Below are positions 2,506-30,567 of a DNA stretch of 64,000 nucleotides, piece after piece. Location of the stretch: assembly GCF_018881815.1 (NCBI RefSeq), contig NZ_JACVPP010000001.1, forward strand, positions 1,435,654 to 1,499,653, in the 5' to 3' direction. The number at the start of each line of letters is the position of its first letter. Position 1 is the stretch's first letter. The position numbers were made by a program, and so were the translations under genes. The notes beneath the pieces were generated by a model. It made no database searches, was not told where the DNA came from, and worked only from the letters and a program-made list of their open reading frames with translations. This DNA comes from Polynucleobacter sp. MWH-HuK1. Lineage in GTDB: Bacteria > Pseudomonadota > Gammaproteobacteria > Burkholderiales > Burkholderiaceae.

Positions 2506-2589
2506 GAAAAAGCCCCTAGATTTCTCCAGAGGCTTTTGTATAACTGGTGGGTCGGGCGAGATTCGAACTCGCGACCAACGGATTAAAAG
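2506..2589 (-). repeat. tRNA-Lys 3' fragment plus terminator, att-like direct repeat (left copy)
   Basis: On the minus strand, 2589 to 2545 reads the 3' 45 bases of tRNA-Lys(UUU): end of the anticodon loop (CTTTTAATCC), variable region, T-arm with GTTCGAATC, acceptor 3' strand and CCA. The tRNA terminator hairpin follows (GCC/GGC arms, then T5; 2537-2507). The 5' half of the tRNA is absent. An 84-bp copy with 4 mismatches lies at 30090-30173 in the same orientation. This is the scar left when an element inserts at a tRNA 3' end and restores an intact tRNA at its far end. Confidence 0.85.
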
Positions 2590-2713
2590 AAGTCGTGCCT
2601 CTTCAAAAACCTATATAGCATAAGGCTTTGAGAGACCAAAAAATGAGTGTGCGATTGACTGTGCGATTGCTTTTTGGTGCAAAGTTCGAATCCAGCGGTC
2701 GGATTTTGTCCTG

Positions 2714-3361
2714 TTAATGATATTGCTGGTTTGTTATAGAGAGTTTGAGAAGGGTTGCCGCTCTATTGACGCCAAGTTTATCCATTACATTAGCGCGATG
2801 TGCTTCTACGGTTTTCAGTGAGATGTGTAGATTTTGACCAACTTGTTTGTTGGTGCAACCTGCAGTAAGGCACTCCAAAACTTCCCGCTCTCGTTTGGTG
2901 AGAGTTTTGAGTTTGTTGCGTATGGAATTTAATTCCATATGTTTTTGATAGTCGCTATATGCTTTATCCAGCATTTCATTTGCTAGCTTACAAATGAGAT
3001 CTTCTTTGTAGGGCTTTTCAATAAAGTCTTGAGCGCCTTGTTTGATAGCTTGGACCGCTAGTGCAACATCAGCATAGCCGGTAATGAAAGCAGCTGGTAG
3101 TAAATAGCGCTGTTTAATTAACTGAGTATATAGTTCAAGACCGCTCATTCCGGGCAAGCGGTGATCAAGCAATAAGCAAGCTGGAATTGCTGGGTCTGCA
3201 TTTTGTAGGGCAAGCAAAAACCGCTCGGCACTTTCATGGGGGCTCACCTTAAATCCATTGCTTTCTAGTAGCCAGACTAAGGATTCCCGAGCATCCTCGT
3301 CATCGTCCACTATATAAATGACGCCAGTTTTAAGGGGGATAGATTGAGCATTCAGAGGCAT
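2714..3361 (-). CDS. FixJ/TtrR-type two-component response regulator
   Basis: 215 residues from the chosen ATG. The N-terminal receiver domain has the acidic pair VDDDED (~18-23), phospho-acceptor Asp66 in LLLDHRLPG and Lys117 in FIEKPY. The C-terminal LuxR/GerE HTH (~150-205) includes LTKREREVLECL and ISLKTVEAHRANVMDKL. FixJ-family regulators activate respiratory operons when phosphorylated. AAAGGTG lies 7 bases upstream of the ATG at 3361; an ATG at 3394, preceded by AGAAGG, would add 11 residues and is also possible. No kinase gene is adjacent; the membrane kinase at 0.5-1.9 kb is a candidate partner. Confidence 0.85.
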   Translation of the reverse strand: MPLNAQSIPLKTGVIYIVDDDEDARESLVWLLESNGFKVSPHESAERFLLALQNADPAIPACLLLDHRLPGMSGLELYTQLIKQRYLLPAAFITGYADVALAVQAIKQGAQDFIEKPYKEDLICKLANEMLDKAYSDYQKHMELNSIRNKLKTLTKREREVLECLTAGCTNKQVGQNLHISLKTVEAHRANVMDKLGVNRAATLLKLSITNQQYH

Positions 3362-3438
3362 GACTAACACCTTTACTTGATGGATTACCATCATAGGCGC
3401 CTTCTAAAGCCTATTAATTGGGAGTTACCCTAAAATAT

Positions 3439-3512
3439 GTTGCTTTGCAGCAAAAAATGCTTGCCTTTGGTGCTAGTCCCTTTTAAAATGGTGCATCGCA
3501 GCAAAATGCTGC
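3439..3512. promoter_or_regulatory. Probable PhaR-type operator upstream of the phasin gene
   Basis: A perfect inverted repeat GCAGCA-AAA-TGCTGC sits at 3498-3512, 25 bases before the phasin start. A related TGC-rich stretch (TTTGCAGCA ... TGCTTGC) lies at 3442-3464. PhaR repressors of phasin genes bind TGC-rich palindromes of this kind. Assignment rests on motif type and position only. Confidence 0.5.
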
Positions 3513-3537
3513 CTATACTCTGCTTAAAGGAAATATC

Positions 3538-4107
3538 ATGTTTCAAAACCAAGTAAATGCCCAAGTAGCACAAGCACAAGCTAAAGCTGTTGAAAACGCT
3601 AAACAATTGGCTCAAGTAGCCGCAAACTGCGCCCAAGAATTGGCTGAAATTAACCAAGCCGCTGCTAAAGATGCTGTTGCTGCTGCTCAAGAAACCAGCG
3701 CAAAGCTGTTAGCCGTAAAAGATCCACAGCAATTGGCTAAATTGGCTCAGCCAGAAGCTGCTCAAGAAGCTTTGCAATATGCCGCTCAGTATCAAGCTAA
3801 GGTAAAGAAAGTAGTTCAAAACGGTAACCATGAAGTTGCTGAAATCGTGGACGCTTCTATTGATGAGGCTCGCGCTGAATTAGTAAAGTTCGTTAAAGAA
3901 GCGACTAAGTCTGCTCCAGCAGGTTCTGAAGCATTTGTATCTGCATTTAAAACTGCTTTTGAAACTTCATTGCAACAGTTTGATGCTGCTCGTGCACATG
4001 CTACTGAAGCATTTGCAACTTATGAAAAGAATGTTGACGATGCATTGGCAACTTTGCAAGCCCAAGCTGGCGTCGCTAAGCCTGCTAAAGCTCGTAAAAC
4101 TGCATAA
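3538..4107 (+). CDS. Phasin family protein (PHA granule-associated)
   Basis: 189 residues, Ala/Gln/Lys-rich and almost wholly amphipathic helix. The N-terminal half (QVAQAQAKAVENAKQLAQ) and following helices match the phasin_2/PhaP pattern, and the tail is basic (AKPAKARKTA), as in many granule-binding phasins. Phasins coat polyhydroxyalkanoate granules and control their size. AAAGGA precedes the ATG, and a strong terminator follows at 4129-4158, so it is a single-gene unit. The TGC palindromes upstream suggest PhaR repression. No PHA synthase gene is in the window. Confidence 0.88.
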   Translation: MFQNQVNAQVAQAQAKAVENAKQLAQVAANCAQELAEINQAAAKDAVAAAQETSAKLLAVKDPQQLAKLAQPEAAQEALQYAAQYQAKVKKVVQNGNHEVAEIVDASIDEARAELVKFVKEATKSAPAGSEAFVSAFKTAFETSLQQFDAARAHATEAFATYEKNVDDALATLQAQAGVAKPAKARKTA

Positions 4108-4128
4108 TTGAGTTTTCTGTTTTCAATG

Positions 4129-4158
4129 AAAGCCGCCCACTAATGGCGGCTTTTTCTT
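4129..4158 (+). terminator. Terminator after the phasin gene
   Basis: 9-bp arms AAAGCCGCC / GGCGGCTTT around a 7-base loop, followed by a T-rich tail. Confidence 0.85.
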
Positions 4159-4173
4159 TGGACTTCATGGGCT

Positions 4174-4485
4174 ATGCCAACCATCACAAGCAAAATTGAT
4201 CCATTAGTAAGCCGCCTTAATCAGCGGGCAATAGATGCGCAAGTAGATTTTCTTGCGCAGGGCAGGGCATTGATAAGCGAGTGGTTACGGGCGACAGATC
4301 AGGAAGGTAATTTTGAATTGGCGGTAGATTGGCTATTGGGTAACGGTGCGGATCGTTACTTTAATGACAATCGAGAGGTGCTCGCAGTAATAGTCATGCG
4401 TAATGCCATGCAGTTATTTGAGATTCGCGATAGTGCTACTGAAGACGTCTACCAAGATGCAAGAAATTGGTTTGAGGTAAGTTAA
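4174..4485 (+). CDS. Hypothetical protein
   Basis: 103 residues, no recognised family. It is helical and acidic, with an Asp/Glu-rich C-terminus and no signal peptide, membrane segment or Cys. It starts 16 bases past the phasin terminator and overlaps the convergent gene on the minus strand by four bases at the stop codons. That tight convergence supports both as real genes. Function unknown. Confidence 0.55.
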   Translation: MPTITSKIDPLVSRLNQRAIDAQVDFLAQGRALISEWLRATDQEGNFELAVDWLLGNGADRYFNDNREVLAVIVMRNAMQLFEIRDSATEDVYQDARNWFEVS

Positions 4486-4835
4486 GTAACTTTCTTCAAC
4501 TTTTCTGCAATGATTTTGAGGGCCTGCTCAGCAGTCTTAGCAGGCTTTCCACTACCTGATTTACCAATGACAAAGTAGTGTTCCTTGTGAATATAAATGT
4601 GAAGATAAAGCTCATTCTTATTTGCGCCAATGACTATTTGTAAAACGGGCTCATTACTTGCGTGATCAAAAGTCTCGGTAAATGAAGTAAATCCCAAATC
4701 ATGGGCGTGTTGATCCGCTAAATCCCGAATGAGATTGCTAATGCCTTCAACGAGATTGCAATATTCCCTGTAAAAGACGGGATTGGTATGCCGAAGCTCT
4801 GCAACAGCTATAGCGTGTAGGGTGCTAGAAGCCAT
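4482..4835 (-). CDS. Hypothetical protein
   Basis: 117 residues. The N-terminal half is helical and His-rich (ADQHAHDLGF). The C-terminal half has alternating hydrophobic strands (LQIVIGANKNELYLHIYIH) and ends in a Lys-rich helix. I recognise no domain. It follows another small minus-strand gene by two bases, so the two probably share a transcript. Confidence 0.55.
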   Translation of the reverse strand: MASSTLHAIAVAELRHTNPVFYREYCNLVEGISNLIRDLADQHAHDLGFTSFTETFDHASNEPVLQIVIGANKNELYLHIYIHKEHYFVIGKSGSGKPAKTAEQALKIIAEKLKKVT

Positions 4836-4837
4836 GG

Positions 4838-5035
4838 CTATTGAATGATCTCCAGATGAACGTATGCGTCTAAATTGGCCATTGTGTCGCGCTTATCTAA
4901 AACAGCTAATCGTAAAGCTTCTTGTTTAAAGTCTTCAAGGCTCGGATGCGAGCCATCACCGCCTAATGAGACGATGTATGTCCAGAGCACTTGGCTTCTT
5001 TGATCTTTGCGGTAGATATCGACAATCCGCTTCAT
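4838..5035 (-). CDS. Hypothetical small protein
   Basis: 65 residues, starting MKRIVDIYRKD. GGGGG lies a few bases upstream of the ATG on the minus strand. It probably forms a two-gene unit with the following 117-residue protein (two-base gap). No domain recognised; soluble and mixed-charge. Confidence 0.5.
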   Translation of the reverse strand: MKRIVDIYRKDQRSQVLWTYIVSLGGDGSHPSLEDFKQEALRLAVLDKRDTMANLDAYVHLEIIQ

Positions 5036-5190
5036 CTATCCCCCTTAAAAATGACTATACGCCCAGATTTAAGATATTGGTTCTAATTTTTATAATGCAC
5101 CGCCGCAAAACGAAGTGCGTTTTCAATGAGTATGAGTTTGACTTGACTGTGGTCAATGATTGCTATGTAGAAATTGCATAAGATCTTTCA

Positions 5191-5529
5191 ATGTCAAGTG
5201 CGTATATTCGCTTTTTAAATCTCATTGATGCGCTCGATCGCATGAATCCCGGCCGCGCATTAGATTGCCTGGAGATTGAGTTACTTGAATACATCATGGC
5301 GCAGAATTCGAAAAACAATTCTTTATTGGTTGGCGATCTGATTGGTCTAAGCCATTTAGGCTCACAAGCTACCTTGCATGGCAGACTTAAAAATCTGTCT
5401 GCACAAGGCTACATTAAATTAATTTCTGACAAAGCGGATGCTCGTAAAAAATTCGTAATCCCCACTCAGCTTACGATTAAGTATGTGAAATTTATGTCTG
5501 ATTGCTTGGAGAAGAGTTTGAGATCTTAA
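5191..5529 (+). CDS. MarR-like winged-helix regulator
   Basis: 112 residues. An N-terminal dimerisation-type helix precedes a winged helix: LLEYIMA, VGDLIGLSHLGSQATLHGRLKNLSAQGYIKL with the recognition helix around LGSQATLHGRL, then a charged wing (SDKADARKKFVIPT). The layout fits small MarR-type regulators. It stands alone between the minus-strand pair and a terminator at 5646-5672. The ligand and targets are not evident. Confidence 0.7.
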   Translation: MSSAYIRFLNLIDALDRMNPGRALDCLEIELLEYIMAQNSKNNSLLVGDLIGLSHLGSQATLHGRLKNLSAQGYIKLISDKADARKKFVIPTQLTIKYVKFMSDCLEKSLRS

Positions 5530-5563: not shown

Positions 5564-5584
5564 AGCGTTACTTTAAGTAACGCT
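5564..5584. repeat. 21-bp near-perfect palindrome, copy 1
   Basis: Arms AGCGTTACTT and AAGTAACGCT around a single T. A second copy with A at the centre is at 27237-27257. The flanking bases differ, so only the palindrome is shared. The two copies bracket all nitrate genes of the island. Confidence 0.7.
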
Positions 5585-5645
5585 TGTCTCATCTAAATAT
5601 CAAGTGTAGGATTTAGCTAGTCTCCTCCATATTGGTATATGGTTT

Positions 5646-5672
5646 ATACCCGCTCATAGGCGGGTATTTTTT
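5646..5672 (+). terminator. Terminator between convergent genes
   Basis: 8-bp arms ATACCCGC / GCGGGTAT with a 6-base loop, then a T6 run on the plus strand. It lies right at the 3' end of the minus-strand membrane protein gene. Confidence 0.8.
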
Positions 5673-6144
5673 AATAAAAAAATCCGTGAGCACCCAAAAC
5701 GGAGGCAATTATTGTGACTAGACTTAATAGCAAAATAATTGCATGCACAATTTGAGTTTTTTGTAGGTTAGTGATGTTGTGCCCATTCTTGACCATCTTT
5801 CCATGATCTTTTAAGAAAAATGGTTCCACTATAAAAAGAGCAAGAAAGAAGAGTGCCCAAACAAAAACCATGGCATGCATCCAGAAGTATTGGATTTCTG
5901 TAAAGCGGTTCCAGGCATTCAGTTTATAGATCATATAGAACCCACTAATGCCTGCTAACAAGACCATTACTCTGGCGATATTGGCAAATCTATTTTCAAT
6001 GGCATTAAAAATGGCCAATTGATCAACGCGAAACGAGGTTCGTCTAAGAGTGGGAATAAGTACTAGCGTAACAAAAGTAACGCCACCCATCCAAATCACT
6101 ACGCTAACAATATGTATTGCTCTTGCGATAGTTAAGTCGTTCAT
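5671..6144 (-). CDS. CopD/DUF2269-like inner-membrane protein
   Basis: 157 residues with four hydrophobic segments. The N-terminus has ARAIHIVSVVIWMGGVTFV, a His-containing first helix typical of CopD-like and related heme or copper membrane proteins. Further His residues occur in helix 3 (FWMHAMVF) and helix 4 (IVHAIILL), so heme or metal binding is plausible. The ATG at 6144 is chosen because upstream codons overlap the preceding gene in another frame. It follows the DUF3079 gene by four bases, so they likely form one transcript. Confidence 0.65.
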   Translation of the reverse strand: MNDLTIARAIHIVSVVIWMGGVTFVTLVLIPTLRRTSFRVDQLAIFNAIENRFANIARVMVLLAGISGFYMIYKLNAWNRFTEIQYFWMHAMVFVWALFFLALFIVEPFFLKDHGKMVKNGHNITNLQKTQIVHAIILLLSLVTIIASVLGAHGFFY

Positions 6145-6148
6145 GGAG

Positions 6149-6340
6149 CTATTGTGGGTTCTTGAGTAATTCTCGATTATCCATGCCCCACGTTTCCCAA
6201 CCCTCGCCAAATAGTTCATATGGATGTTGAGCTCGATCTGAGCCATTTCCACAAGCCATTGAGTTTGAAGGGCAATACCTCTCACACCCCCAGCAGACGC
6301 GTTCAGGGTGCGGCGGATTGATTGGAAACTTCTTTTGCAT
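6149..6340 (-). CDS. DUF3079 domain protein
   Basis: 63 residues from the ATG at 6340. The core HPERVCWGCERYCP, followed by MACGNGSD and QHPYELFG, is the DUF3079 signature: small Cys-rich proteins of unknown role found in beta- and gammaproteobacteria. The Cys pattern CxxCxxxC plus a later Cys suggests metal binding (inference). An in-frame TTG at 6361 is the alternative start. It is co-directional with the membrane protein four bases downstream. Confidence 0.8.
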   Translation of the reverse strand: MQKKFPINPPHPERVCWGCERYCPSNSMACGNGSDRAQHPYELFGEGWETWGMDNRELLKNPQ

Positions 6341-6377
6341 GATGTGCTCATTAAATTCCAATTAGCTGGATTGGCAT

Positions 6378-6391
6378 TTGATCTATCGCAA
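6378..6391. promoter_or_regulatory. Possible FNR/NnrR-type half-conserved box
   Basis: TTGAT-CTAT-CGCAA matches 8 of 10 positions of TTGAT-N4-ATCAA. It lies between the divergent DUF3079 and PAS genes. One half-site is perfect and the other weak, so this is tentative. Confidence 0.3.
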
Positions 6392-6516
6392 ATGAAAGGG
6401 TGTTTTGATGATTTATTAGAAACCTTACTTTTTTACATAGTTCTATCGGGCTATATCAAACCCCACCCATTATTAGGAAAATGTTCCAAATTTGTAATTT
6501 TTAGATAGAGGCTTCT

Positions 6517-6942
6517 ATGTCAAATCAGGTGAATTTTGAACAGCTAGCAAATGTTATGGGCGATGGGGTAGTAATTTCCGATGCCAAAGGGGATATTGTT
6601 TTTTGGAATGCTGCAGCAGAGCGCATTTTTGGATATAGCTCTAGTGAAGCTTTGGGAAAAAGCCTGGACATCATTACGCCTGATCGTTTTAGAGAGCGTC
6701 ACTGGGATGGCTATAAAAAATCAATGGATACAGGAACCACCCGTTATGGCACAACACTATTGACAGTACCCGCCTTGCATAAAGAAGGTAAGCCTTTGTC
6801 TATTGCCTTTACCGTAGCCATGTTGACCGATGCCTCTGGCAAAGTTACTGGAATTGCCGCTGTAGTGAGAGATGATACTGAGCGATTCCAAAATGATCGG
6901 GCTTTAAAGAAGCGCATTGCGGAGTTAGAGGCGAAGTCTTAA
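6517..6942 (+). CDS. Single-domain PAS sensor protein
   Basis: 141 residues. One PAS domain (~5-120: GVVISDAKGDIVFWNAAAER, FGYSSSEALGKSL, then a core ending VRDDTERF) is followed by a short coiled-coil tail. There is no kinase, cyclase or HTH. The FG-region segment RHWDGYKKSMDTGTTR, with His62, resembles the place where the heme-ligating His sits in FixL-type PAS domains, so a heme or redox sensor is possible but unproven. It starts an apparent operon: nnrS begins 11 bases after its stop. Confidence 0.85.
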   Translation: MSNQVNFEQLANVMGDGVVISDAKGDIVFWNAAAERIFGYSSSEALGKSLDIITPDRFRERHWDGYKKSMDTGTTRYGTTLLTVPALHKEGKPLSIAFTVAMLTDASGKVTGIAAVVRDDTERFQNDRALKKRIAELEAKS

Positions 6943-6953
6943 GGCTAATTGAC

Positions 6954-8108
6954 ATGTCCAAAAAGACAATGCCTTTATTTGCTCTTGGGTTTAGACCATT
7001 CTATTTACTGGCAGCGCTTTGGTCTGTGATTGCCGTAGCTGAGTGGCTATGCGAATTAAGTGGCTATAGCTTCAGGGGTAATAGCGCAATACCTGGTATT
7101 CAGTGGCACGCTCATGAAATGATCTTTGGCTTCGCCGCTACGGTTGTAGCTGGTTTTGCGCTTACGGCAGTAAGGGCTTGGACGGGCTTGAATACTCCAA
7201 CTGGCACATCATTGATGCTATTGGTTTTGCTTTGGATTGCTGGCAGAGTAGGACCATTATTGAGTCCTTACCTGGCAGTTGTAGATGTTTTATTTTTGCC
7301 TGCAATTGCGTTTGCTATTGGCAGATTGATTTTGCGTCAGCGTATGTATAGAAATTTATTTCTCCCATTCATTTTGAGTGTATTGGGTGTTTTAAATGCT
7401 GTGTTCTATCTTTCGGCGAATAATCGAATTCAAATTGATGCCAATAAAGTCTTGATTATTTCTTTGTTTTTGATTGTGATGATTGAGATCATGATTGGGG
7501 GCAGAGTTATACCAAGTTTTACGGCTAACGCATTTTTTGGGATAAAGCAAATTCGTAATAAAAACTTAGCAACCTTAGTACTTGCTTGTTGTGGCGCATC
7601 TTTCTTGCTGTGGATTTTTTTTCCAGCAAGTTATTTGACTGCGATAGTTTGTCTATTTACCGGTCTGATTCAATTAAAGATGTTGTGGGGTTGGAATCCC
7701 CTTGCAACAGTTTCTAAACCAATCGTATTGGTTTTGCATGCTGCATATTTATGGATTCCACTTGGCTTTATTCTCTTGGGGCTCTCTGCATTAGGTTTTG
7801 TGACGATCTATATACCAGTTCATGCATTTGGGATTGGCGCAACCGCAGGGCTCATCATTGGAATGATTACGCGCACTGCAATGGGGCATACCGGCCGCCC
7901 ATTAATTGCAGGTGTAATCGAAACGCTTGCTTATACATTGGTACAAGCTACAGCAATATTTTGGATGTTGGCTCATGCCTTCAGTGGAACATGGTTTCAC
8001 TCCGCTCTTGGCTGGGCTGGAATTTGCTGGTGTACAGCATTTATTTTGTATTTGTTTAAATATTTTCCTTGGTTAACAAAACCTCGATTAGATGGGCAAC
8101 CTGGCTAA
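6954..8108 (+). CDS. nnrS: NnrS family heme-copper membrane protein
   Basis: 384 residues, about 12 membrane helices. The signature IQWHAHEMIFGF (His52, His54) and the later GMITRTAMGHTGR match NnrS, a heme- and copper-containing membrane protein induced under nitric oxide stress in denitrifiers and required for tolerance of nitrosative conditions. It sits between the PAS gene and the nitronate monooxygenase-like gene on the same strand with short gaps. Nitrosative protection alongside nitrate respiration is a reasonable inferred role. Confidence 0.9.
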   Translation: MSKKTMPLFALGFRPFYLLAALWSVIAVAEWLCELSGYSFRGNSAIPGIQWHAHEMIFGFAATVVAGFALTAVRAWTGLNTPTGTSLMLLVLLWIAGRVGPLLSPYLAVVDVLFLPAIAFAIGRLILRQRMYRNLFLPFILSVLGVLNAVFYLSANNRIQIDANKVLIISLFLIVMIEIMIGGRVIPSFTANAFFGIKQIRNKNLATLVLACCGASFLLWIFFPASYLTAIVCLFTGLIQLKMLWGWNPLATVSKPIVLVLHAAYLWIPLGFILLGLSALGFVTIYIPVHAFGIGATAGLIIGMITRTAMGHTGRPLIAGVIETLAYTLVQATAIFWMLAHAFSGTWFHSALGWAGICWCTAFILYLFKYFPWLTKPRLDGQPG

Positions 8109-8139
8109 GCAATAGCCACAACACTACTTAGGTAACTCA

Positions 8140-9360
8140 ATGACAACATTAATTCCGACTGACGTTATGGAGTTGCTTTCTAAGAGTGGCGTGTCTCCCT
8201 TGGTGATAAAAGGGAAAAACATATTGCCTATAGTGCAAGGTGGTATGGGCGTTGGAGTATCGGCTCATCGTTTAGCTGGTGCTGTGGCGAAAGCCGGTGG
8301 TGTAGGAACGATTTCGTCGATTGATTTGAGGCGTCTACATCCTGATTTAATGGAGCAAACCCAGCATCTCAAGCCGTGTTCTGAAAGTCGAGAGGCAATC
8401 AATGCGGCAAATATAGAGGCTTTGAGGCGTGAGATTCTTCAGGCCAAGAAAGATGCTGGCGGGTTTGGTCTTATTGCTGTGAATGTGATGAAAGCCGTCA
8501 ACGAATATGCTCAATATGTAAGGTGTTCTTTAGAAAACGGCGCTGACATCATTGTTGTAGGTGCTGGATTGCCGCTGGATTTGCCGGATTTGGCAGCAGA
8601 TTATCCAGATGCTCTTTTAATCCCCATTCTTTCTGAGGCTAGAGGTGTTCAATTATTAGTTAAGAAATGGATGAAAAAAGGTCGCCTGCCAGATGCCATT
8701 GTGATTGAAAATCCCCGTTTAGCTGGCGGGCATGTTGGAGCATCAAGCGTTACGGATATTCATAATACTAAATTTGATTTTGAAAATGTTATCCCAGAGG
8801 TGCTCAAATTTTTTGAAGAAGCTGGAATTGCAGGAAAGATTCCTTTAATCGCTGCTGGAGGTATTTCAAGTCTTGAGGATATTAAGAGGCTTCAGGCTTT
8901 GGGTGCATCAGCAGTGCAGTTGGGTACCGCCTTTGCCGTTACTACTGAAGGTGACGCGGACGATGCATTTAAACATGTCTTAGCTAACGCGAAAAAAGAA
9001 GATATCGTAGAGTTTCTCAGTGTCGCAGGCCTACCAGCCCGAGCAGTGAAGACTCCATGGCTTGGCAAATATCTCAAAGTAGAGAGTGTTCTCAAAGAAA
9101 CGGCTCGCAAAAAACCACGCTGCACAATGGTATTTGATTGTCTGCATGACTGTGGTTTAAGGGATGGGAATAGTTCGTGGGGTCAATTTTGCATTGACAA
9201 AGTTCTAGGAAGCGCATTAGTGGGTAGCGTTCAAAAAGGACTTTTTTTTAGAGGCGCAGGTGCATTGCCATTTGGCACTCAAATTCGCCCAGTAATTGAT
9301 TTAATTACAAGACTTTTATCTGATGTGGAGCCAATCGAATATGGTTATGCAGCCAATTAG
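8140..9360 (+). CDS. NAD(P)H-dependent flavin oxidoreductase / nitronate monooxygenase-like
   Basis: 406 residues, TIM-barrel FMN enzyme of the 2-nitropropane dioxygenase family: QGGMGVGVSAHRLAGAVAKAGGVGT at the N-terminus (cut here: QGGMGVGVSAHRLA), PRLAGGHVGAS in the middle, then AAGGISSLEDI and QLGTAF for phosphate/FMN binding. The Cys-rich C-terminal extension (CTMVFDCLHDCGL) is typical of the longer subgroup. Substrate could be nitronates or a lipid/quinone; the family name is no proof of substrate. It overlaps the start of the ribonucleotide reductase gene, so translation is probably coupled. Confidence 0.82.
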   Translation: MTTLIPTDVMELLSKSGVSPLVIKGKNILPIVQGGMGVGVSAHRLAGAVAKAGGVGTISSIDLRRLHPDLMEQTQHLKPCSESREAINAANIEALRREILQAKKDAGGFGLIAVNVMKAVNEYAQYVRCSLENGADIIVVGAGLPLDLPDLAADYPDALLIPILSEARGVQLLVKKWMKKGRLPDAIVIENPRLAGGHVGASSVTDIHNTKFDFENVIPEVLKFFEEAGIAGKIPLIAAGGISSLEDIKRLQALGASAVQLGTAFAVTTEGDADDAFKHVLANAKKEDIVEFLSVAGLPARAVKTPWLGKYLKVESVLKETARKKPRCTMVFDCLHDCGLRDGNSSWGQFCIDKVLGSALVGSVQKGLFFRGAGALPFGTQIRPVIDLITRLLSDVEPIEYGYAAN

Positions 9361-11758: not shown

Positions 11759-11764
11759 ACAAAT

Positions 11765-12727: not shown

Positions 12728-12754
12728 GATTGCTTTTATGTATAGTTTTATTAA

Positions 12755-21887: not shown

Positions 21888-21899
21888 CGGAGAAATAAG

Positions 21900-23423: not shown

Positions 23424-23432
23424 GGAGCAAGA

Positions 23433-24110
23433 ATGAAACATTCATTACCTTTAAGAGCGCTATCTAGATTGCTGCAATATCCTGATCAGGAATTGATGGA
23501 GCATTTAACTGAAGTTGCTGAGGCTTTATACACTATGCCAAAGTTAAGTAAGAAGGTGCATAGCGGTTTGGTAGATTTTGTAAAGAATTTACAAACATCT
23601 GATTTATTTGATTCACAAGAAAACTATGTAGAGTGCTTTGATCGCGGCAGAGCAACCTCTTTGCATCTATTTGAGCATGTCCATGGTGACTCACGTGAGC
23701 GAGGTCAGGCAATGGTGGATTTGCTGCAAACCTATAAAGAAGGTGGTTTGCAATTAAGCGCCAATGAGTTGCCTGATCATTTATCCATCATTCTTGAGTT
23801 TGCTTCAACGCTTCCATTGGACCAGGCTAAGCAATTTATTGGTGAAATGGCTCACATTTTGAATGCAGTGTATTCAACTTTGGTATCTCGTAATAATCAG
23901 TATGCATGGCTAATTGCTGCTGCCATTGAGTTTTCAGGTGAAAAGTTCAAGATTGTTGATTTAAAGCCTGAAGAAAATTCCATGGATGAGGAGTGGGCAG
24001 AGCCACCAGCATTTAGTGGTTGCTCTACGCGAGGTCAATCAAAACCAGGAGAGGCGCAGCCACTGCACTTTGTGAAGCGCACAAAAGAATTAGAAGGGGT
24101 TCAGTCATGA
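23433..24110 (+). CDS. narJ: Nitrate reductase assembly chaperone
   Basis: 225 residues, all-helical NarJ/TorD-like fold, with LSRLLQYPDQEL at the start and the conserved HLFEHVHGDSRERGQAM segment (~68-85). NarJ holds apo-NarGH until cofactors are inserted, before docking to NarI. AAGGAG sits just upstream of the start. Its stop codon overlaps the narI start (ATGA), so the two are translationally coupled. Confidence 0.95.
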   Translation: MKHSLPLRALSRLLQYPDQELMEHLTEVAEALYTMPKLSKKVHSGLVDFVKNLQTSDLFDSQENYVECFDRGRATSLHLFEHVHGDSRERGQAMVDLLQTYKEGGLQLSANELPDHLSIILEFASTLPLDQAKQFIGEMAHILNAVYSTLVSRNNQYAWLIAAAIEFSGEKFKIVDLKPEENSMDEEWAEPPAFSGCSTRGQSKPGEAQPLHFVKRTKELEGVQS

Positions 24111-24808
24111 GCTATTTAGATACTTTTATTTTTGGAATTTACCCATACATCTGCCTGACAGTTTTTTTTGTAGGTAGCTTGATTCGATTTGATCGAGACC
24201 AATACACCTGGAAAAGTGATTCTAGTCAGCTATTGCGTAAAAAACAGTTGCGCATAGGAAGCATCTTTTTTCATGTTGGGGTCTTATTCTTATTTTTCGG
24301 CCATTTCTTTGGAATGCTAACGCCGCACTTCTTGTATGAGCCATTCATTACCGCAGGGCAAAAGCAAGTAATGGCTATGGCAACAGGAGGTATTGCTGGA
24401 ACGTTTGGGTTTATTGGTCTGACGATTCTGTTACATCGTCGTTTAACGGATGATCGTATTCGTGCCACATCTAAGACAAGCGATATTTTGATTGCTGTCA
24501 TTTTATGGTTCCAGCTGTTGCTAGGTCTTGCAACTATCCCGCTTTCGGGCCAGCATTTAGATGGCTCAATGATGATGAAATTGGCTGGTTGGGCTCAGGA
24601 TATTGTTACCTTTAATTCCGGTGCAGTTGCTTTGCTGAGCGGGGTTGATTGGGTATTTAAGCTGCATATGTTTTTAGGTATGACCATCTTTTTGATTTTC
24701 CCATTTACTCGCTTAGTGCACATTTGGAGCGGCTTTGCATCTGTAACGTATTTGGTAAGACCATATCAAATAGTGCGTAGTCGCCGCCTCGGTATTGGGC
24801 GTAAGTAA
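24107..24808 (+). CDS. narI: Respiratory nitrate reductase gamma subunit (cytochrome b)
   Basis: 233 residues from the ATG that overlaps the narJ stop. Five membrane helices. The four heme-ligand histidines occur at His56, His66, His187 and His205, the same numbers as in E. coli NarI. It oxidises quinol at the periplasmic side and feeds electrons to NarH. It closes the classic narGHJI set; a carbonic anhydrase gene follows after 14 bases, probably on the same transcript. Confidence 0.97.
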   Translation: MSYLDTFIFGIYPYICLTVFFVGSLIRFDRDQYTWKSDSSQLLRKKQLRIGSIFFHVGVLFLFFGHFFGMLTPHFLYEPFITAGQKQVMAMATGGIAGTFGFIGLTILLHRRLTDDRIRATSKTSDILIAVILWFQLLLGLATIPLSGQHLDGSMMMKLAGWAQDIVTFNSGAVALLSGVDWVFKLHMFLGMTIFLIFPFTRLVHIWSGFASVTYLVRPYQIVRSRRLGIGRK

Positions 24809-24822
24809 GGTTTGGATTGACG

Positions 24823-25497
24823 ATGCCAGATGAGCTATTAGAGCGACTCAGAAAGTTTCGTACAGAATACTTTCCTGCGCATCGTCAAGAGTTTGCATCC
24901 CTTATAGAGCAAGGGCAATCGCCGAAAACTTTATTTTTAGGTTGCTCTGATTCCAGAATTGTTCCTTACCTGTTAACTGGAACTGGCCCTGGGGATTTAT
25001 TCATTCTTCGCAATGTTGGGGCCATTGTTCCTCCATATGATGGTTCTTATGGCATTCATGGTACGGCTGCAGGAATTGAATTTGCTGTAATGCAATTGAA
25101 AGTTAGCAGAATTGTGGTTTGTGGGCATAGTCATTGTGGGGCGGTAAGGTCTGCCTATGAAGGCGTGCCTAAAGAGGCGATTAACTTAACCGCATGGCTA
25201 GACTTAATTAAGGAAGCGCTTTTGCCGGTTAGGCAAACTCCAGAGGCATTAAGGAGGGTGGAGCAACGCTCTATTGTTTTGCAACTTGAGCGGCTGATGG
25301 ACTACCCCATGGTTCGCGCACAAGTGGAAAAGAAAGAGTTAACTTTACATGGTTGGTATTACGTTATCGAAGATGGCGAAGTTCAAGTTTTTGATGTAAC
25401 TGCTGGCAAATTTATTCCGGCACATTCTGCAGATAACTGTGGAACAGGCCCTTATTTAGACGATCAATTTGATGGAGAGATCAAGCATGCCAAATAA
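24823..25497 (+). CDS. Beta-carbonic anhydrase
   Basis: 224 residues from the ATG at 24823. Zinc site and catalytic dyad are visible: Cys41-x-Asp43-x-Arg45 in LGCSDSR, then His102 and Cys105 in CGHSHCGA. It interconverts CO2 and bicarbonate in the cytoplasm. It follows narI closely and overlaps the next gene, so it is likely part of the nar transcript. A role in pH or bicarbonate balance during nitrate respiration is inference; a beta-CA in a nar operon is not standard. Confidence 0.93.
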   Translation: MPDELLERLRKFRTEYFPAHRQEFASLIEQGQSPKTLFLGCSDSRIVPYLLTGTGPGDLFILRNVGAIVPPYDGSYGIHGTAAGIEFAVMQLKVSRIVVCGHSHCGAVRSAYEGVPKEAINLTAWLDLIKEALLPVRQTPEALRRVEQRSIVLQLERLMDYPMVRAQVEKKELTLHGWYYVIEDGEVQVFDVTAGKFIPAHSADNCGTGPYLDDQFDGEIKHAK

Positions 25498-26077
25498 TTC
25501 AATGACAGAAATGGCCGCGGCGCTAATTTCTTCACGTCAGTCATACTTGCCTAAACGTTTATTCCAGCCGGGGCCTTCACAAGAGCAGTTGGATTTAATG
25601 TTTTCTATGGCTGCTACAGCTCCAGATCACAATCTAACTAGACCTTGGAGGTTTGTAATTTGCCCATTGGAATGCAGGGGGCTGCTGGCTGATGCATTTG
25701 CAAAATCACTTGTTGAGCGCGATCCGGATGCCACCGAACAGCAGATTCAAGATGCTATGGTTAAGGCGCATAGAGCGCCGTTGGTGATGTTGGCAATTGT
25801 CAATGCCAGGGGAACAGAGTCAGAAGTTCCTCCTAGTGAGCGCATTATTTCAGCGGGTTGTGCTATTCAGAATATTTTTCTGATGGCAAATGCTATGGGG
25901 TTTGGTGCCAGCCCTACTAGCGGTAAATCTATGTATATGAAGCCTGTTAGAGATCTGTTTGGCTTAAAAGATCATGAGGATCCCTTATGCTTTATTAATA
26001 TTGGAACGCCTGATCGAGCAACTCCTGCTAAACCGCGAATGATCCCTACTGAATTTGTTACTACTCTCAAGTATTAG
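25487..26077 (+). CDS. Nitroreductase family flavoprotein
   Basis: 196 residues from the ATG at 25487, chosen because GGAGAG lies 7 bases upstream; it overlaps the carbonic anhydrase stop by 11 bases. SRQSYLPKRLF, ATAPDHNLTRPWRFVI and ANAMGFGASPTSGK are the FMN-binding blocks of YdjA-like nitroreductases. Such enzymes reduce nitro groups, quinones or flavins with NAD(P)H. The true substrate is not evident. Its coupling to the nar operon is notable. Confidence 0.85.
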   Translation: MPNNSMTEMAAALISSRQSYLPKRLFQPGPSQEQLDLMFSMAATAPDHNLTRPWRFVICPLECRGLLADAFAKSLVERDPDATEQQIQDAMVKAHRAPLVMLAIVNARGTESEVPPSERIISAGCAIQNIFLMANAMGFGASPTSGKSMYMKPVRDLFGLKDHEDPLCFINIGTPDRATPAKPRMIPTEFVTTLKY

Positions 26078-26116
26078 CATTTGTCTTTCCTTTGGGGTAT
26101 CTGATACATTTCAGGT

Positions 26117-26659
26117 ATGAAGAAAATAGAATGGGAAAGGGTGCGTGCGTATATAAAAAAATGCATCCCACCGGATCCATATGGATTTAGTTGGCTAGAT
26201 ATCTTAAGAGTCTGTTTTGGGCTAGATGTCTTAATTATGGCCGTTGTCCTTTTTAATGAATTTGTTGGGCCAGCAGATAAATCAATGGAAATTAATGCTG
26301 TTTTTTTGGTAACAGCTTTAATGATCTTATTGATGCCAGCTAGCCCAATGTTTCACCCAAAAACTATCATTGAGGGAAATGTTGTCTCTGCATTGCTGGC
26401 TTCCGCGAGCATTTATATTTTCCCCGAGTCAAATATTGCGATGGTTTTGAGTGTTTCTGCTTCAGCAGCTGCAATGTATGCATTGAAGTGCTTCCAACCA
26501 ACCGCTTTAATGCTGGCATTGTTTGTATCAACGGGAAAAATCAATAGTTATTACTTTGCTTTGTATCCTATCTTTGCAGACTCAGTAGTATTGGTTATTA
26601 CTGCATACCTCTATGGGAAAATTACGAAGCACCCATATCCAGCAAAGTTAGAGGCTTAA
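26117..26659 (+). CDS. HPP-family membrane protein
   Basis: 180 residues with four or five hydrophobic helices. SPMFHPKTIIEGNVVSALLA and the later FQPTALMLAL correspond to the paired HPP-type loops (His/Gln-Pro-x). HPP-family proteins in cyanobacteria and chloroplasts have been linked to nitrite transport; this is established for some members only. Placed 39 bases after the nitroreductase gene in a nitrate island, a nitrite-handling role is a reasonable inference. Confidence 0.7.
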   Translation: MKKIEWERVRAYIKKCIPPDPYGFSWLDILRVCFGLDVLIMAVVLFNEFVGPADKSMEINAVFLVTALMILLMPASPMFHPKTIIEGNVVSALLASASIYIFPESNIAMVLSVSASAAAMYALKCFQPTALMLALFVSTGKINSYYFALYPIFADSVVLVITAYLYGKITKHPYPAKLEA

Positions 26660-26684
26660 TAGGCTTAAAAGCAGCGCAACAAAT

Positions 26685-26698
26685 TTAATCTAGATCAA
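26685..26698. promoter_or_regulatory. FNR/NnrR-type binding site
   Basis: TTAAT-CTAG-ATCAA matches 9 of 10 positions of TTGAT-N4-ATCAA (perfect half-site on the right). It lies 62 bases before the start of the small Cys-containing gene and 26 after the HPP gene stop, the expected place for oxygen- or NO-responsive activation. Confidence 0.55.
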
Positions 26699-26760
26699 AT
26701 TTGGTTTTCGTAAATATTGTAAATTTACATATCAGCGCATATATGATTGGAGGAGATGAT

Positions 26761-26982
26761 ATGGAGTCGAAAGACACTTGTCCGCTAGACGGTAGTTGGA
26801 TGCGTGATTCCTGTACCACATACCATAATCAAAAAAATAACGGAACTTTATCTAAGTGCCAACATCGAGATAATTGCGCCAATGCTAGGGCGATTGTTGA
26901 ATCCGACCTTAACGAGTCAGTGTCAATTTCCAAAAAAGTATTAGTTGACCAAATACCTCATATTTTTAAAGATCAATCTTGA
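26761..26982 (+). CDS. Small Cys-containing protein, function unknown
   Basis: 73 residues, soluble and hydrophilic. Four cysteines occur in CPLDGSWMRDSC and CQHRDNC, a spacing that could bind a metal or Fe-S cluster (inference). A very strong Shine-Dalgarno GGAGGAG lies 6 bases upstream of the ATG and an FNR-type box lies in the promoter region. It therefore looks like a genuine, anaerobically induced gene. No family recognised. Confidence 0.7.
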   Translation: MESKDTCPLDGSWMRDSCTTYHNQKNNGTLSKCQHRDNCANARAIVESDLNESVSISKKVLVDQIPHIFKDQS

Positions 26983-27048
26983 TCTAATAATTTTGTCGAT
27001 GTAAAAAAGATAGAACTTAAAGTTGGATGATTGGTTATAAATTATTTA

Positions 27049-27216
27049 ATGGTCGCAATTAATCAAGCCTCAAAAATTTGCCCTAGCTGTCGAGCATTAA
27101 TACCAATTGATCGCTTGGAAATGATTACCTCTCGCAGTAGAGGCAGAATCACTAAAACGCTGCGTTGTCACAGGTGTATTGAGAAAATAGCACTAGCTAA
27201 TAAAACTAGAAAATAA
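27049..27216 (+). CDS. Small zinc-ribbon-like protein
   Basis: 55 residues from the ATG at 27049. Two CxxC knuckles, CPSC and CHRC, are separated by about 31 basic residues, so a zinc ribbon is likely. The ends are Lys/Arg-rich, compatible with nucleic acid binding. The longer start at 27031 is possible. It follows the other Cys-containing gene by 66 bases and may share its FNR-regulated promoter. Function unknown. Confidence 0.55.
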   Translation: MVAINQASKICPSCRALIPIDRLEMITSRSRGRITKTLRCHRCIEKIALANKTRK

Positions 27217-27236
27217 AAGGCTAGATCCAACTTGGG

Positions 27237-27257
27237 AGCGTTACTTAAAGTAACGCT
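27237..27257. repeat. 21-bp near-perfect palindrome, copy 2
   Basis: Arms AGCGTTACTT / AAGTAACGCT around a single A, extended by one G-C pair. Twin of 5564-5584. No T tract follows on either strand, so it is not an ordinary terminator. Confidence 0.7.
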
Positions 27258-27279
27258 CGCCAACCTCAAATAAAACCAC

Positions 27280-27314
27280 TTTGGAGCAACGAAGTGTGAA
27301 ATGGTTGCTCCAAA
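27280..27314. repeat. Hairpin with 11-bp perfect arms
   Basis: TTTGGAGCAAC (27280-27290) and GTTGCTCCAAA (27304-27314) with a 13-base loop. Next to it, TTGGTTTT-G-AAAACCAA at 27321-27337 forms another palindrome. Confidence 0.6.
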
Positions 27315-27652
27315 TATTCATTGGTTTTGAAAACCAAAGATTGAGAGAGTAATTCTTAAAAGATGAGTTATTTCACTACACAAAACGCTACACACCGATA
27401 ATCAGGTGACGTAACCTCTTGAAATCCTAATGGTTTTCTTTGGTTGTCTGCTCTCATAACCTGAGAACCTAAACTTGACCTAAAACTCATAATAAGGTCA
27501 GCTCAAAGCCGCTGCCATCACAGCCATTCAAGACCCCGATGCGGCCGATGTACTTAGGCTGGCTCCTAAAAAGCAGTTTGCGTACTACGCAGGATTGAAA
27601 ACTACCGAAAAACAAGTTAGATTTCAATACAACTATTAGATAAAAGATAAAA

Positions 27653-29656
27653 ATGAACAAATTCTCCGTCTCACTCAGTGTTTTGCTTACCTGCGCGACT
27701 GCATTTACATCAACCATCTCTCAAGCCGCAGACCTCAAGGGCAACGTACAAAGTGCTGGCAAGCCTATTGTCGGATCAACGGTAACCTTGTTTGCTGCTG
27801 GCACTGGCGCTCCCACGCTGTTGGCTCAGAGCAAAACCGACAACCAAGGCGCGTTCAAGTTAAGTTTCACGGATGCCTCGGCAGGTAGTGTCCGTTATGT
27901 CATCGCTAAAGGTGGCACGCCCACAGCCGCAGCGGATAAAAAACCGAATGATGCTCTGGCGTTACTTTCGATGCTGGGAACCTCGGTGCCAAAGAAAGTC
28001 ACAATCAACGAACTCACTACCGTGGCCTCAACATTTACTGCTGCACGTTTTATAAATGGGGAAGTGATCTCCGGAAAGCGTCTTGGACTGCAAATCGCTG
28101 CGGGTAACACTCCCAATTTGGTAGACCCCGTCACGGGTACGTGGGGCAGCGTGCTACTAGATCCGCTTAACAGCACCGAGAGCACGACACTAGTGAAGTT
28201 GAACACGCTCGCTTCACTCATTAGCGCCTTCGCCACGGTGGCAGACGATGATTGGCGCGCTCGCTTCCTGAAGGCTGCGACTCCGCCTTCTGGCGTCACA
28301 CCAAAGAACACGCTGGAAGCGATGGCTGGTATCGCGCGTGCGCCATGGGTTGCTCCTAAAGACATCTACGGATTGTTCGACCAAGCCTACCCGCAGCCCA
28401 AGGATGGTTCTCGGCGCAGCACGCCCTTTGCGCCATATCTCGCCTACGTTCCAGATGATTTCGCACTGTCGCTAAGATTTGCCGGCGGTGGTGTTTACTC
28501 TGCCGGTCGGCTCATGTTCGATGCCAAGGGCAACCTCTGGAGCGGACAGAACTGGATGGCCGGTTCACAGTCGGGAGTCAATAAGAGTATTGGCGGCGGC
28601 GTGGTCAAACTCGCCCCAAACGGAACCGCTTTGTCGCCACCAATTACTGGCTTTACCGGTATGGGCATTGACGGTGTCGGCTGGGGCACCGCCGTGACGC
28701 TTGACAAGGTCTGGGCCTCGAGCTTTAACGGGAAGATCCTCGTGCTAGATTTCGATGGCAAACCCGCGGCCAAGGAGAGTGATCTCCCTTTCAAGGAGAA
28801 GTTGCTCGGACTGATGGGTATCGGTGTTGCATCTAATGGGGATGTCTGGATTGCTGATGGCGTGGGAAACAAACTGGTCTTTTTCCCTGGTGGACGGTTA
28901 AAGGACGGAAAGATCGTCGAAGTCCCAGGGCTGAAGTCACCGTTCGACATCGTCATTGATCCCCAGAATCGCGTCTGGGTCAGCAACTCACAATCTGACA
29001 CTGTCGTGCGATTTCCCGCTGACGATCCCTCCAAGGCCGAGTCCTTTCGCGCCGGGATAGGAGTTCGCGCTCTTGCGTTGGACTCCAAAGGCAATGTCTG
29101 GGTGGCAAGCAACATGGACCTGAAAACACCTCCGCCAGTCATTCCTGACGGTGCATCGATCATGGATCAGTTTAGGATTGCCGCTGATGCTATGGTGAAG
29201 TACTTAGAGGGGCCACCAACAAGAACTACAGGTGCCATCAACATGATCCGCCCGGATGGTACTCAACCCGTGCCAATGGGCTTCACTGGCCCAGCGCTCA
29301 ATATTCCTTGGGGTTTGAACATCGACGGCAATGATGACGTTTGGATTGGAAACTTCTGGGCACGCTCGGTCGCGCTGATGGCCGGGGATGATACAAAAGG
29401 CTATCCTGCAGGCACTAAGGCTGGCGACCTGATTCACGTATTCAAAAGCGGTAACCTTCAGATGATTACCGACGTGGCCATCGATCCAGCAGGCAACGTC
29501 TGGGCAGCAAATAACTGGAACCTCGCTGAAGCGGTGACTGACCAAAAGCCAGCGAACTCTACGTCGACTTGGGGTGGAGGTTCGGGCATTACGGTTATCT
29601 ACGGTATCGCGGCACCAGTGCAAACGCCGCGCATGGGTGAGGTACGAAAACCATAA
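27653..29656 (+). CDS. Secreted beta-propeller (NHL/Vgb-like) protein
   Basis: 667 residues. A Sec signal peptide (~1-26, ending SQAA) is followed by a carboxypeptidase-regulatory-like fold (~28-90: GKPIVGSTVTLFAAG) and a region without recognised domain. From ~270 to the end repeated blade motifs appear (FDAKGNLWSG, ASNGDVWIADG, DPQNRVWVSNS, DSKGNVWVAS, DGNDDVWIGN, DPAGNVWAANN), each ~45-60 residues apart, like Vgb/NHL propellers. G+C content is visibly higher than in neighbours, which suggests transfer. Likely extracytoplasmic binding or scaffold; no catalytic site seen. Confidence 0.75.
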   Translation: MNKFSVSLSVLLTCATAFTSTISQAADLKGNVQSAGKPIVGSTVTLFAAGTGAPTLLAQSKTDNQGAFKLSFTDASAGSVRYVIAKGGTPTAAADKKPNDALALLSMLGTSVPKKVTINELTTVASTFTAARFINGEVISGKRLGLQIAAGNTPNLVDPVTGTWGSVLLDPLNSTESTTLVKLNTLASLISAFATVADDDWRARFLKAATPPSGVTPKNTLEAMAGIARAPWVAPKDIYGLFDQAYPQPKDGSRRSTPFAPYLAYVPDDFALSLRFAGGGVYSAGRLMFDAKGNLWSGQNWMAGSQSGVNKSIGGGVVKLAPNGTALSPPITGFTGMGIDGVGWGTAVTLDKVWASSFNGKILVLDFDGKPAAKESDLPFKEKLLGLMGIGVASNGDVWIADGVGNKLVFFPGGRLKDGKIVEVPGLKSPFDIVIDPQNRVWVSNSQSDTVVRFPADDPSKAESFRAGIGVRALALDSKGNVWVASNMDLKTPPPVIPDGASIMDQFRIAADAMVKYLEGPPTRTTGAINMIRPDGTQPVPMGFTGPALNIPWGLNIDGNDDVWIGNFWARSVALMAGDDTKGYPAGTKAGDLIHVFKSGNLQMITDVAIDPAGNVWAANNWNLAEAVTDQKPANSTSTWGGGSGITVIYGIAAPVQTPRMGEVRKP

Positions 29657-29791
29657 GGCTTGACCAATTGGATTGCACCTGCTCAGCCGGGTGCGGTCCC
29701 GCAGGTCATCCGAACTAAGATGAGGTCGTAGTAACTTCAGATCTCTCGATTAACAAGGGGTTGTAGTGGATTGTTTATTGGGTTGGAAAAA

Positions 29792-30019
29792 ATGCCGCAT
29801 GATGATGAGTGTCTTATAAAGCATTACGGCGAAGCTTTGGAGGCGCCTAAGTTTGGTTGGATGGTAGTTTGTGACGTCAATCCAAAAGATCGAGCAGGTG
29901 GTGATGGCCCTATGAAAACCTATATGTTCTTGTTCACCACAAATGGTAATTTTGCGTATGACTCGGCTGCCTTTGGGAATATCAATAACAATGTTCAGTT
30001 CTTAGATCTGATGAAGTAG
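29792..30019 (+). CDS. Hypothetical small protein
   Basis: 75 residues from the ATG at 29792 (an in-frame TTG at 29771 would add seven). It mixes short strands and loops (FGWMVVCDVNP, YMFLFTTNGNFAYDSAAFGN); no domain recognised. It sits between the G+C-richer propeller gene and the right tRNA-Lys fragment, so it is the last gene of the island. No clear Shine-Dalgarno for either start. Confidence 0.45.
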   Translation: MPHDDECLIKHYGEALEAPKFGWMVVCDVNPKDRAGGDGPMKTYMFLFTTNGNFAYDSAAFGNINNNVQFLDLMK

Positions 30020-30567
30020 TGATAACTTATTAAACAAAGCCACCTTCGGATGGTTTTGTTTTTCATGAAAAGCGGGTCAGCACGCAAAAGAAAAAGCCCC
30101 TAGATTTCTCTAGAGGCTTGGGTATAACTGGTGGGTCGGGCGAGATTCGAACTCGCGACCAACAGATTAAAAGATGTGGGATTGTAGATAGACAGTAGTC
30201 AAGACATTACATTAAACCTGTCTTGAAAGTTCCGCGGTATCGGCGGCCGATCTTGTGGATTAGATCGGCTTGAGGTGGAAGTCGAATTTTGTCGACAATG
30301 TCGTGTTGGAGTGTCGTGTATCCGGGCACTTGATTGTCGGGAAAACCGACAAACGTGGTTGTATTTTGCCCTTTACAAATTACCTTTTGAATTCCCGTGG
30401 CGATTCGCAAATTCCGCTAAGTCAATAGGCATTACAAGGGTTTTTGCAGATAAGACACTCTTGTTGCCAAAGATCACCTAGCTGGCTTTCAGTATTATTA
30501 AATGACTTGCGTCAGAAATTAAAATGAGCTACTAAAGGTAGCTCTTTTTAATCAAATCCCAGGTAGC
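30020..30567. other. Gene-free junction at right island end
   Basis: Holds the right tRNA-Lys fragment (30090-30173), a TTGTCGG/CCGACAA hairpin (30334-30352) and a minus-strand open frame at 30207-30410 that I do not accept as a gene. I see no tRNA 5' half and no integrase. Confidence 0.5.
30090..30173 (-). repeat. tRNA-Lys 3' fragment plus terminator, att-like direct repeat (right copy)
   Basis: Same 84-bp structure and orientation as 2506-2589 with 4 mismatches (one inside the tRNA part, AACGG versus AACAG). The tRNA part is 30173 to 30129 on the minus strand, followed by its terminator. The 5' half of the tRNA is missing here too. Confidence 0.85.

Follow-up and report, generated by a model that had tools for sequence, protein, structure and literature searches.

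How does a nitrate-respiration gene cluster come to be enclosed by two fragments of a tRNA-Lys gene? The question is raised by a 64,000-nucleotide stretch of the genome of Polynucleobacter sp. MWH-HuK1 (contig NZ_JACVPP010000001.1, positions 1,435,654 to 1,499,653), hereafter the window, in which narGHJI and accompanying genes lie between 84-bp direct repeats at positions 2506-2589 and 30090-30173. A first-pass annotation, made from the letters alone, described the enclosed segment as a mobile anaerobic-respiration island and took the repeats for traces of at least two stacked insertions into tRNA-Lys, the intact gene being expected to the right of the window. Its description of the repeats was confirmed: they differ at 4 of 84 bases (94% identity in a 93-bp extension), in each a terminator-like stretch accompanies the 45 bases at the 3' end of tRNA-Lys(UUU), and no complete tRNA was found in the window by ARAGORN; a scan of the window against Rfam returned no family at gathering score. 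On the evidence of comparison with other Polynucleobacter genomes, it is very probable that the nar cluster is carried as cargo by a genomic island that is composite and nested. The proposed mobility is supported insofar as the cluster behaves like horizontally moved cargo and the joints lie at tRNA anticodon loops; the conserved unit, however, is 5564-27257 rather than the whole 27.6 kb, and the site is tRNA-Arg(UCU).

In what follows, the genome is called G000, with contigs C1 (2,150,721 bp, which holds the window) and C2 (23,640 bp), and the other G-numbers (G002, G073, G076, G086, G098 and so on) denote the Polynucleobacter relatives compared with it. Two sets of genomes were used, one of 45 single-contig genomes and one of 186 Polynucleobacter genomes, in which narG was counted. 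Positions given without a contig are those of the window.

The nar module and the surrounding tRNA-Arg(UCU) island

The main evidence for transfer between genomes is the contrast in identity between the module and core DNA. Positions 5560-27254 match G098 at 92.7%, positions 5559-27459 match G002 at 90.3% and positions 5648-27459 match G086 at 89.8%, whereas the core region ftsH-folP-glmM, compared in eight relatives of which G098 and G095 are the closest to G000, is 85%, 78% and 77% identical in the same three genomes; the DNA beside tRNA-Lys is 85.4% (G098) and 76.9% (G002) identical. The contrast is smaller for G098. The block sits inside a tRNA-Lys stack in G098, where a PF00589 integrase follows the conserved element end named arm A in Table 1, and beside tRNA(CAU) in G002, where the 3' part of that tRNA is repeated at the far end. 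These comparisons support a module that would have moved between genomes of different species and between different tRNA genes, and they indicate that, within a genus of freshwater bacteria, the complete gene set for a form of respiration passes from species to species as a single module. Among the best 80 of 590 relatives in a scan with narG, from which G000 was possibly left out, the closest named match is Polynucleobacter sp. IMCC 30228 (89%), and a closer one (93%) is a metagenome-assembled genome of an uncultured betaproteobacterium.

The module is contained in an island of ~49.8 kb at tRNA-Arg(UCU), whose intact tRNA (C1:1432812-1432888) forms the left end, outside the window, and whose two ends carry a direct repeat of the 3' part of tRNA-Arg. 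An integrase-like gene for a protein of 454 amino acids, intA (C1:1433011-1434372), follows the tRNA just left of the window. The Pfam integrase N-terminal domains score barely above their cut-offs in its product, and PF00589 is not matched; in the G073 orthologue, which has 82% amino-acid identity and follows tRNA-Pro/tRNA-Arg, PF00589 scores 4e-5, under the cut-off. Relatives lacking the block, the existence of which the first-pass annotation had proposed to check, were found. Among the seven tested at tRNA-Arg for an uninterrupted site (G098, G095, G061, G112, G002, G076 and G086), two, G098 and G095, lack the island and have both G000 flanks meeting at an uninterrupted tRNA-Arg. The three short pieces shared with the tRNA-Arg region of G073 (Table 1), the last of which holds a short PF00589 recombinase at 42884-43450, are a probable backbone of the tRNA-Arg island.

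In G073 itself, four 3' fragments of tRNA-Arg lie to the right of the intact gene (C1:851057, 864759, 870370 and 878841), and tRNA-Arg is thus a repeated insertion site in that genome.

The tRNA-Lys joints and the proposed formation of the composite

The two repeats of the window belong to a larger set, since a search of C1 and C2 with the repeat sequence gave 13 matches, the intact tRNA-Lys included. Besides the pair in the window, there is one copy 760 bp to its left, three decayed copies at C1:1079-1084 kb, the intact gene itself (1096 kb) with an adjoining match to the terminator only, single copies at 800 kb and 1236 kb, two on C2, and a weak one at 1582 kb. The tRNA part of the left repeat (2545-2589) is identical to the intact gene at 45 of 45 bases and that of the right repeat (30129-30173) at 44 of 45. 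In a typical joint the tRNA-like sequence ends with the anticodon loop (TTAAAAG), after which comes arm A, a second element-end type (arm B) or the 5' half of the tRNA. Three such anticodon-loop cores, at C1:1434898 and at window positions 2572 and 30156, split the tRNA-Arg island into consecutive cassettes, with the nar genes in the middle one. Further copies of arm A lie at C1:1434894, C1:1083747 and C2:19845. Matches to arm A were found in 14 of the 45 single-contig genomes, G000 among them (in G027 only for the first 25-50 bases of the query), and matches to arm B in 8 of the 45, again including G000. The fragment at C1:1236128-1236216 passes the anticodon loop by a few bases into the 5' stem before it diverges, and is located upstream of genes identified by reading as pstS-like.

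The following course of events is consistent with these data. The comparison shows an element with the 454-residue integrase-like protein inserted at tRNA-Arg(UCU), with the tRNA preserved on the left and its 3' fragment at window position 47037; this element most likely carries the whole. The tRNA-Lys cassettes would have been added at the Lys cores within that island, in an order that is our reconstruction. The nar cargo may derive from an element of the tRNA(CAU) type, because its right border keeps the arm of that type together with the loop CTCATAA, as in G002. Elements specific for tRNA-Lys would have introduced its fragments as portable attachment sites, and cassettes could then be strung together at such copies at a distance from the genuine tRNA-Lys gene. 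This suggests that what earlier insertions left behind may act as portable joints, with the cargo bound neither to one integrase nor to one tRNA. An integrase would work in trans at the Lys joints, since the nar cassette of G000 lacks one, unlike G098, in which the same arm is followed by an integrase. Between the two tRNA-Lys repeats no integrase was found when the open reading frames (ORFs) of 1-9000 and 24000-46000 were read, the main ORFs between them were scanned for domains, and searches with PF00589 and intA were made; the PF00589 profile by itself misses the intA/intB family here.

Several observations weigh against this reading. At tRNA-Arg, the flanks are separated by ~3-4 kb of unrelated-looking sequence in G061 and G112, no match to the right flank was found for G002, G076 and G086 within the 20 kb examined, and the 57%-identical relatives of intA in G027 and G010 adjoin tRNA-Asn instead of tRNA-Arg. 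The first joint (C1:1434898) holds just part of the 3' half of the tRNA, and 14 of the 18 other narG surroundings have no complete tRNA in the stretch examined, several of them being ended by contig ends. Neither excision nor transfer was observed. No tRNA-Lys-specific integrase was identified in G000, and most copies of arm A are not followed by a PF00589 gene (one is in 1 of 8 copies in G112, 1 of 5 in G095, 1 of 2 in G098, 0 of 3 in G061 and 0 of 5 in G000).

The last two points also speak for an explanation that we regard as unlikely, although it survives best among the alternatives, namely that the tRNA-Lys fragments are passive and that the block was built by homologous recombination between chromosomal and circular copies, with no site-specific recombination here. 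The five fullest copies of the repeat, distributed over the chromosome and C2, are indeed 93-100% identical over 87-93 bp, and no tRNA-Lys integrase adjoins the joints in G000. However, the similarity between joints runs through the seven-base loop and only then switches to an arm or to the 5' half of the tRNA, which is the pattern of an integrase. Moreover, G112, G095 and G098 each have a single arm A that directly precedes a PF00589 integrase, and an intact tRNA-Lys is immediately adjoined by an integrase with 35-38% identity to intA in G065 (C1:499712-501001), G074 (C1:1394795-1395970) and G033 (C1:506979-508157), these three being candidates for the enzymes that make tRNA-Lys joints.

An origin of the nar block in the ancestor of the genus, followed by loss in most lineages and by relocation through rearrangement, is improbable. 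narG is present in 4 of the 45 single-contig genomes and in 20 of the 186. Further genomes have divergent versions of the block, about 70-80% identical at the DNA level, and that of G076 (75.8%) is no closer to that of G000 than core DNA is (74-78%). As this block differs about as much as the core, part of the nar distribution may be old or vertical, a point against the island reading. Ancestry throughout is nevertheless difficult to reconcile with the identities in G002 and G086, which extend over 21.8-21.9 kb and exceed those of the core, or with the differing tRNA neighbours: among the surroundings of narG in 19 genomes (G000 included, G055 left out), tRNA-Lys is found in G098, G076 and G044 and tRNA(CAU) in G002. 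Less probable still is a pair of insertions, one after the other, into a single tRNA-Lys, with a 3' fragment left behind by each and the intact gene on the right. Such stacks exist near the intact gene in G061, G112, G095 and G098, and in G000 there are the three decayed fragments at C1:1079-1084 kb, but the island at the window locus ends in tRNA-Arg repeats at a site uninterrupted in two relatives, and the single tRNA-Lys(UUU) found by ARAGORN in the G000 stretches examined (C1:1096279-1096354) lies ~340 kb to the left of the window, with none in the window or the following 40 kb and, elsewhere to the right, only one weak repeat match (73%, C1:1582138).

A palindrome at the module borders and beside integrase genes

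A 21-bp palindrome, AGCGTTACTTWAAGTAACGCT (7-bp arms around a 7-bp centre), for which no matches are expected by chance, offers a possible, if doubtful, route by which the same cargo might reach different tRNA sites. The alignment with G098 stops at the palindromes on both sides of the module, and that with G002 stops at the left one; degenerate forms are present at both nar borders in G098 and at the left border in G002. With up to one mismatch, there are 14 copies in G000, 1 in G002 and 2 in G098. Three observations argue against the palindrome as an exchange point: the alignment with G086 begins at 5648, 64 bp inside the left palindrome; divergent nar blocks end elsewhere, for example at 6171 and 26977; and neither of the two copies counted in G098 is located at its nar borders.

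In an initial count, a palindrome was close to 43 of 431 breakpoint clusters, where uniform placement predicts 2.6. This count was discounted, as some loci of the set had been selected because they carry an integrase and the null was too lenient. In a stricter test, the integrase-chosen loci were dropped and intergenic positions of the same regions served as the null. A homology breakpoint was then found within 25 bp of 10 of 41 palindromes (null mean 3.6, maximum 10 in 500 draws; on repetition, 10 was reached in 7 of 5000 draws), the 10 including the two nar-border copies that prompted the idea, with relatedness uncontrolled. The test is thus modestly positive.

Copies of the palindrome also flank integrase genes of the intB type, with a spacing of ~1.5 kb. 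This was checked at 14 loci taken from the matches of an intA search, nine of which (eight in seven other genomes, one in G000) align with intB at the DNA level. When these nine are taken together with intB and its close copy in G076, a palindrome lies within ~160 bp on at least one side, and on both sides in 8 of the 11, with up to two mismatches allowed; at the remaining five loci (in G065, G027, G010, G074 and G033) none was found in the stretch examined. The nine genomes with intB-type genes have a mean of 6.2 palindromes, as opposed to 0.9 in the 36 others, and still 4.1 once the copies flanking integrases are removed, in a grouping set by hand from the intA search and with phylogeny uncontrolled. 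Exact matches to the palindrome in IMG/VR viral contigs numbered zero.

The proposal would be that cassettes bounded by AGCGTTACTTWAAGTAACGCT, namely the nar cargo and integrase genes in units of ~1.5 kb (palindrome-integrase-palindrome), are swapped between vehicles of different tRNA specificity, by which one cargo could reach tRNA-Lys, tRNA-Arg or tRNA(CAU) sites. A recombinase, perhaps of the intB-type integrase family, may act on the palindrome. The support for such swapping is suggestive, not conclusive, and an operator or insulator role would also account for the fixed place of the palindrome beside integrase genes. If the palindromes are real exchange points, they would explain the presence of the same cargo at different tRNA sites, and this is directly testable.

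The intB gene itself is carried, along with genes read as metal-efflux-like, by a stretch of ~27 kb (C1:798763-825889) that is 98.4-99.9% identical to G076:C1:1618118-1590828, in genomes whose core DNA is only 74-78% identical. Judged by this identity, the stretch appears to be a very recent transfer.

Gene content, related systems and further loci

The features of the window are collected in Table 1.

Table 1. Features of the window, with positions counted from its first letter
Feature	Position	Strand	Remark
Joint 1, tRNA-Lys-derived	2501..2593		Terminator-like stretch and tRNA 3' 45 bases (2545-2589); gene sense minus; ends at TTAAAAG
Arm A, conserved element end after joint 1	2594..2710	+	Tandem TGTGCGATTG-like repeats
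Extra cargo left of module	2714..5529		FixJ/LuxR-type regulator, phasin, small ORFs
Nitrate-respiration module, 21.7 kb	5564..27257	+	Common to G098, G002 and (from 5648) G086
Palindrome AGCGTTACTTTAAGTAACGCT	5564..5584		Left module border relative to G098 and G002
NnrS-family protein	6954..8108	+	Domain scan
NrdJ, adenosylcobalamin-dependent class II ribonucleotide reductase	9323..11758	+	TIGR02504 above cut-off
NarX/NarQ-like sensor kinase and NarL-like regulator	12755..15298	+	Best matches, under NCBIfam cut-offs
Two NarK-type nitrate/nitrite carriers	15425..18094	+	Second above cut-off, other below
narGHJI, membrane-bound respiratory nitrate reductase	18114..24808	+
Carbonic anhydrase, nitroreductase, HPP membrane protein, small ORF	24817..26982	+
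Palindrome AGCGTTACTTAAAGTAACGCT	27237..27257		Right module border relative to G098
Arm of tRNA(CAU) type	27258..27459	+	Ends approximately at anticodon-loop core CTCATAA; the G002 tRNA(CAU) island has the same at its right end
NHL-repeat protein, cargo between module and joint 2	27653..29656	+	G+C-richest stretch
Joint 2, tRNA-Lys-derived	30085..30177		tRNA part 30129-30173
Arm B, second element-end type	30178..30272	+	Further copies: C1:800683, C2:287
Three pieces of 0.5-0.8 kb common to the G073 tRNA-Arg region	39545..43450		39545-40087, 40669-41273, 42645-43450
Tandem arm repeat TTTTACACAGTTTTTTACACAGT	46958..46980	+	Nearly identical to the copy before the integrase at the island left end
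tRNA-Arg(UCU) 3' part repeat, island right end	47037..47082	+	46-bp exact match

The content that the first-pass annotation had assigned to the segment between the repeats is largely there. narG, narH, narJ and narI pass the curated NCBIfam cut-offs (TIGR01580, TIGR01660, TIGR00684 and TIGR00351), as one NarK does, and the sensor/regulator pair and the other carrier are recognizable below theirs; the ribonucleotide reductase, described as oxygen-independent, is of the B12-dependent class II. That everything for nitrate respiration lies there was an overstatement, for MoaA, a molybdenum-cofactor enzyme (PF06463), is encoded outside the nar block, at C1:2080483. As MoaA is matched in all 45 single-contig genomes (partially in G102, and split in two in G017), the cofactor for NarG is probably available on arrival in most genomes, and since cofactor synthesis is already chromosomal, arrival of the module could add nitrate respiration in one step. 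Parts of the extra cargo left of the module are matched in relatives (4546-5520 in G098, 3432-4162 in G002), in neither case beside the nar block. The NHL-repeat gene, in the stretch of highest G+C (0.536 against ~0.43), is perhaps of other origin. Domain scans of some ORFs of the region, with no search aimed at such genes, gave no relaxase or mating-pair genes.

Several known systems resemble this one. The additive flexible genomic islands at tRNA-Lys of 'Ca. Methylopumilus' (PMC10872708; the additive type is defined in PMC5217437) are likewise found in aquatic bacteria, and recurring copies of the tRNA-Lys end mark islands that vary in size and content by gain and loss of cassettes. Those repeats comprise the last 20 bases of tRNA-Lys(ctt) and enclose mostly unknown genes, whereas here the 3' half of tRNA-Lys(UUU) is copied with its terminator, nested in a tRNA-Arg island away from tRNA-Lys, and the cargo is respiratory. 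Respiratory operons as cargo of site-specific islands, with discordant histories of integration module and cargo, are known from the vinyl-chloride-respiration islands of Dehalococcoides (PMC3146451), which share a single target, ssrA, in contrast to the different tRNA genes reached by the same cargo here. The nitrate respiration conjugative element (NCE) of Thermus thermophilus (PMC5748679, PMC6282519) similarly combines nar genes and regulators in a mobile region; tRNA joints, palindrome borders and, in partial scans, a lack of conjugation genes set the present island apart. Tycheposons, as presented in PMC10872708, are tRNA-associated, cargo-carrying elements of aquatic bacteria with a tyrosine recombinase; the integrases encountered here adjoin tRNA-Arg, tRNA-Lys, tRNA-Asn or tRNA(CAU).

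Among the papers listed in literature searches, none dealt with nar islands in Polynucleobacter, judged by titles and the openings of abstracts. The most relevant earlier work is reportedly that by Hoetzinger et al. (2017), which concerns genomic islands of this genus, and the novelty of a nested multi-tRNA island with portable tRNA joints is uncertain.

Contig C2 bears two tRNA-Lys joints and genes that were recognized by reading as those for phosphoenolpyruvate carboxylase, glutamate dehydrogenase and transport. Its end and start align in continuity with C1:1435072-1436014 (95 and 90%), with no sequence overlap between the ends, and on this basis C2 probably represents either a circle or a collapsed tandem repeat. 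No replication genes were recognized in a partial scan (longer ORFs by reading, three by Pfam), and the first 20,000 bases gave no match among the 72,556 records of PLSDB. C2 may be an excised pair of cassettes; its DNA is distinct from the nar segment.

Some islands contain a complete tRNA(CAU) gene that is interrupted close to its anticodon by a group I intron; such genes are found at C1:770176, 797102, 1223815 and c1967118, and also in G076, G031, G077 and G016. RF00028 is matched at gathering score by three of the four G000 intron copies (not by that at 1223815) and by the one in G076. The intron-split gene starts ~200-230 bases from a severed tRNA(CAU) 5' half and its arm in five cases, namely those at 770 and 1967 kb and those of G076, G031 and G016. 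In this arrangement the intron-bearing copy may supply a whole tRNA again and at the same time mask the attachment site.

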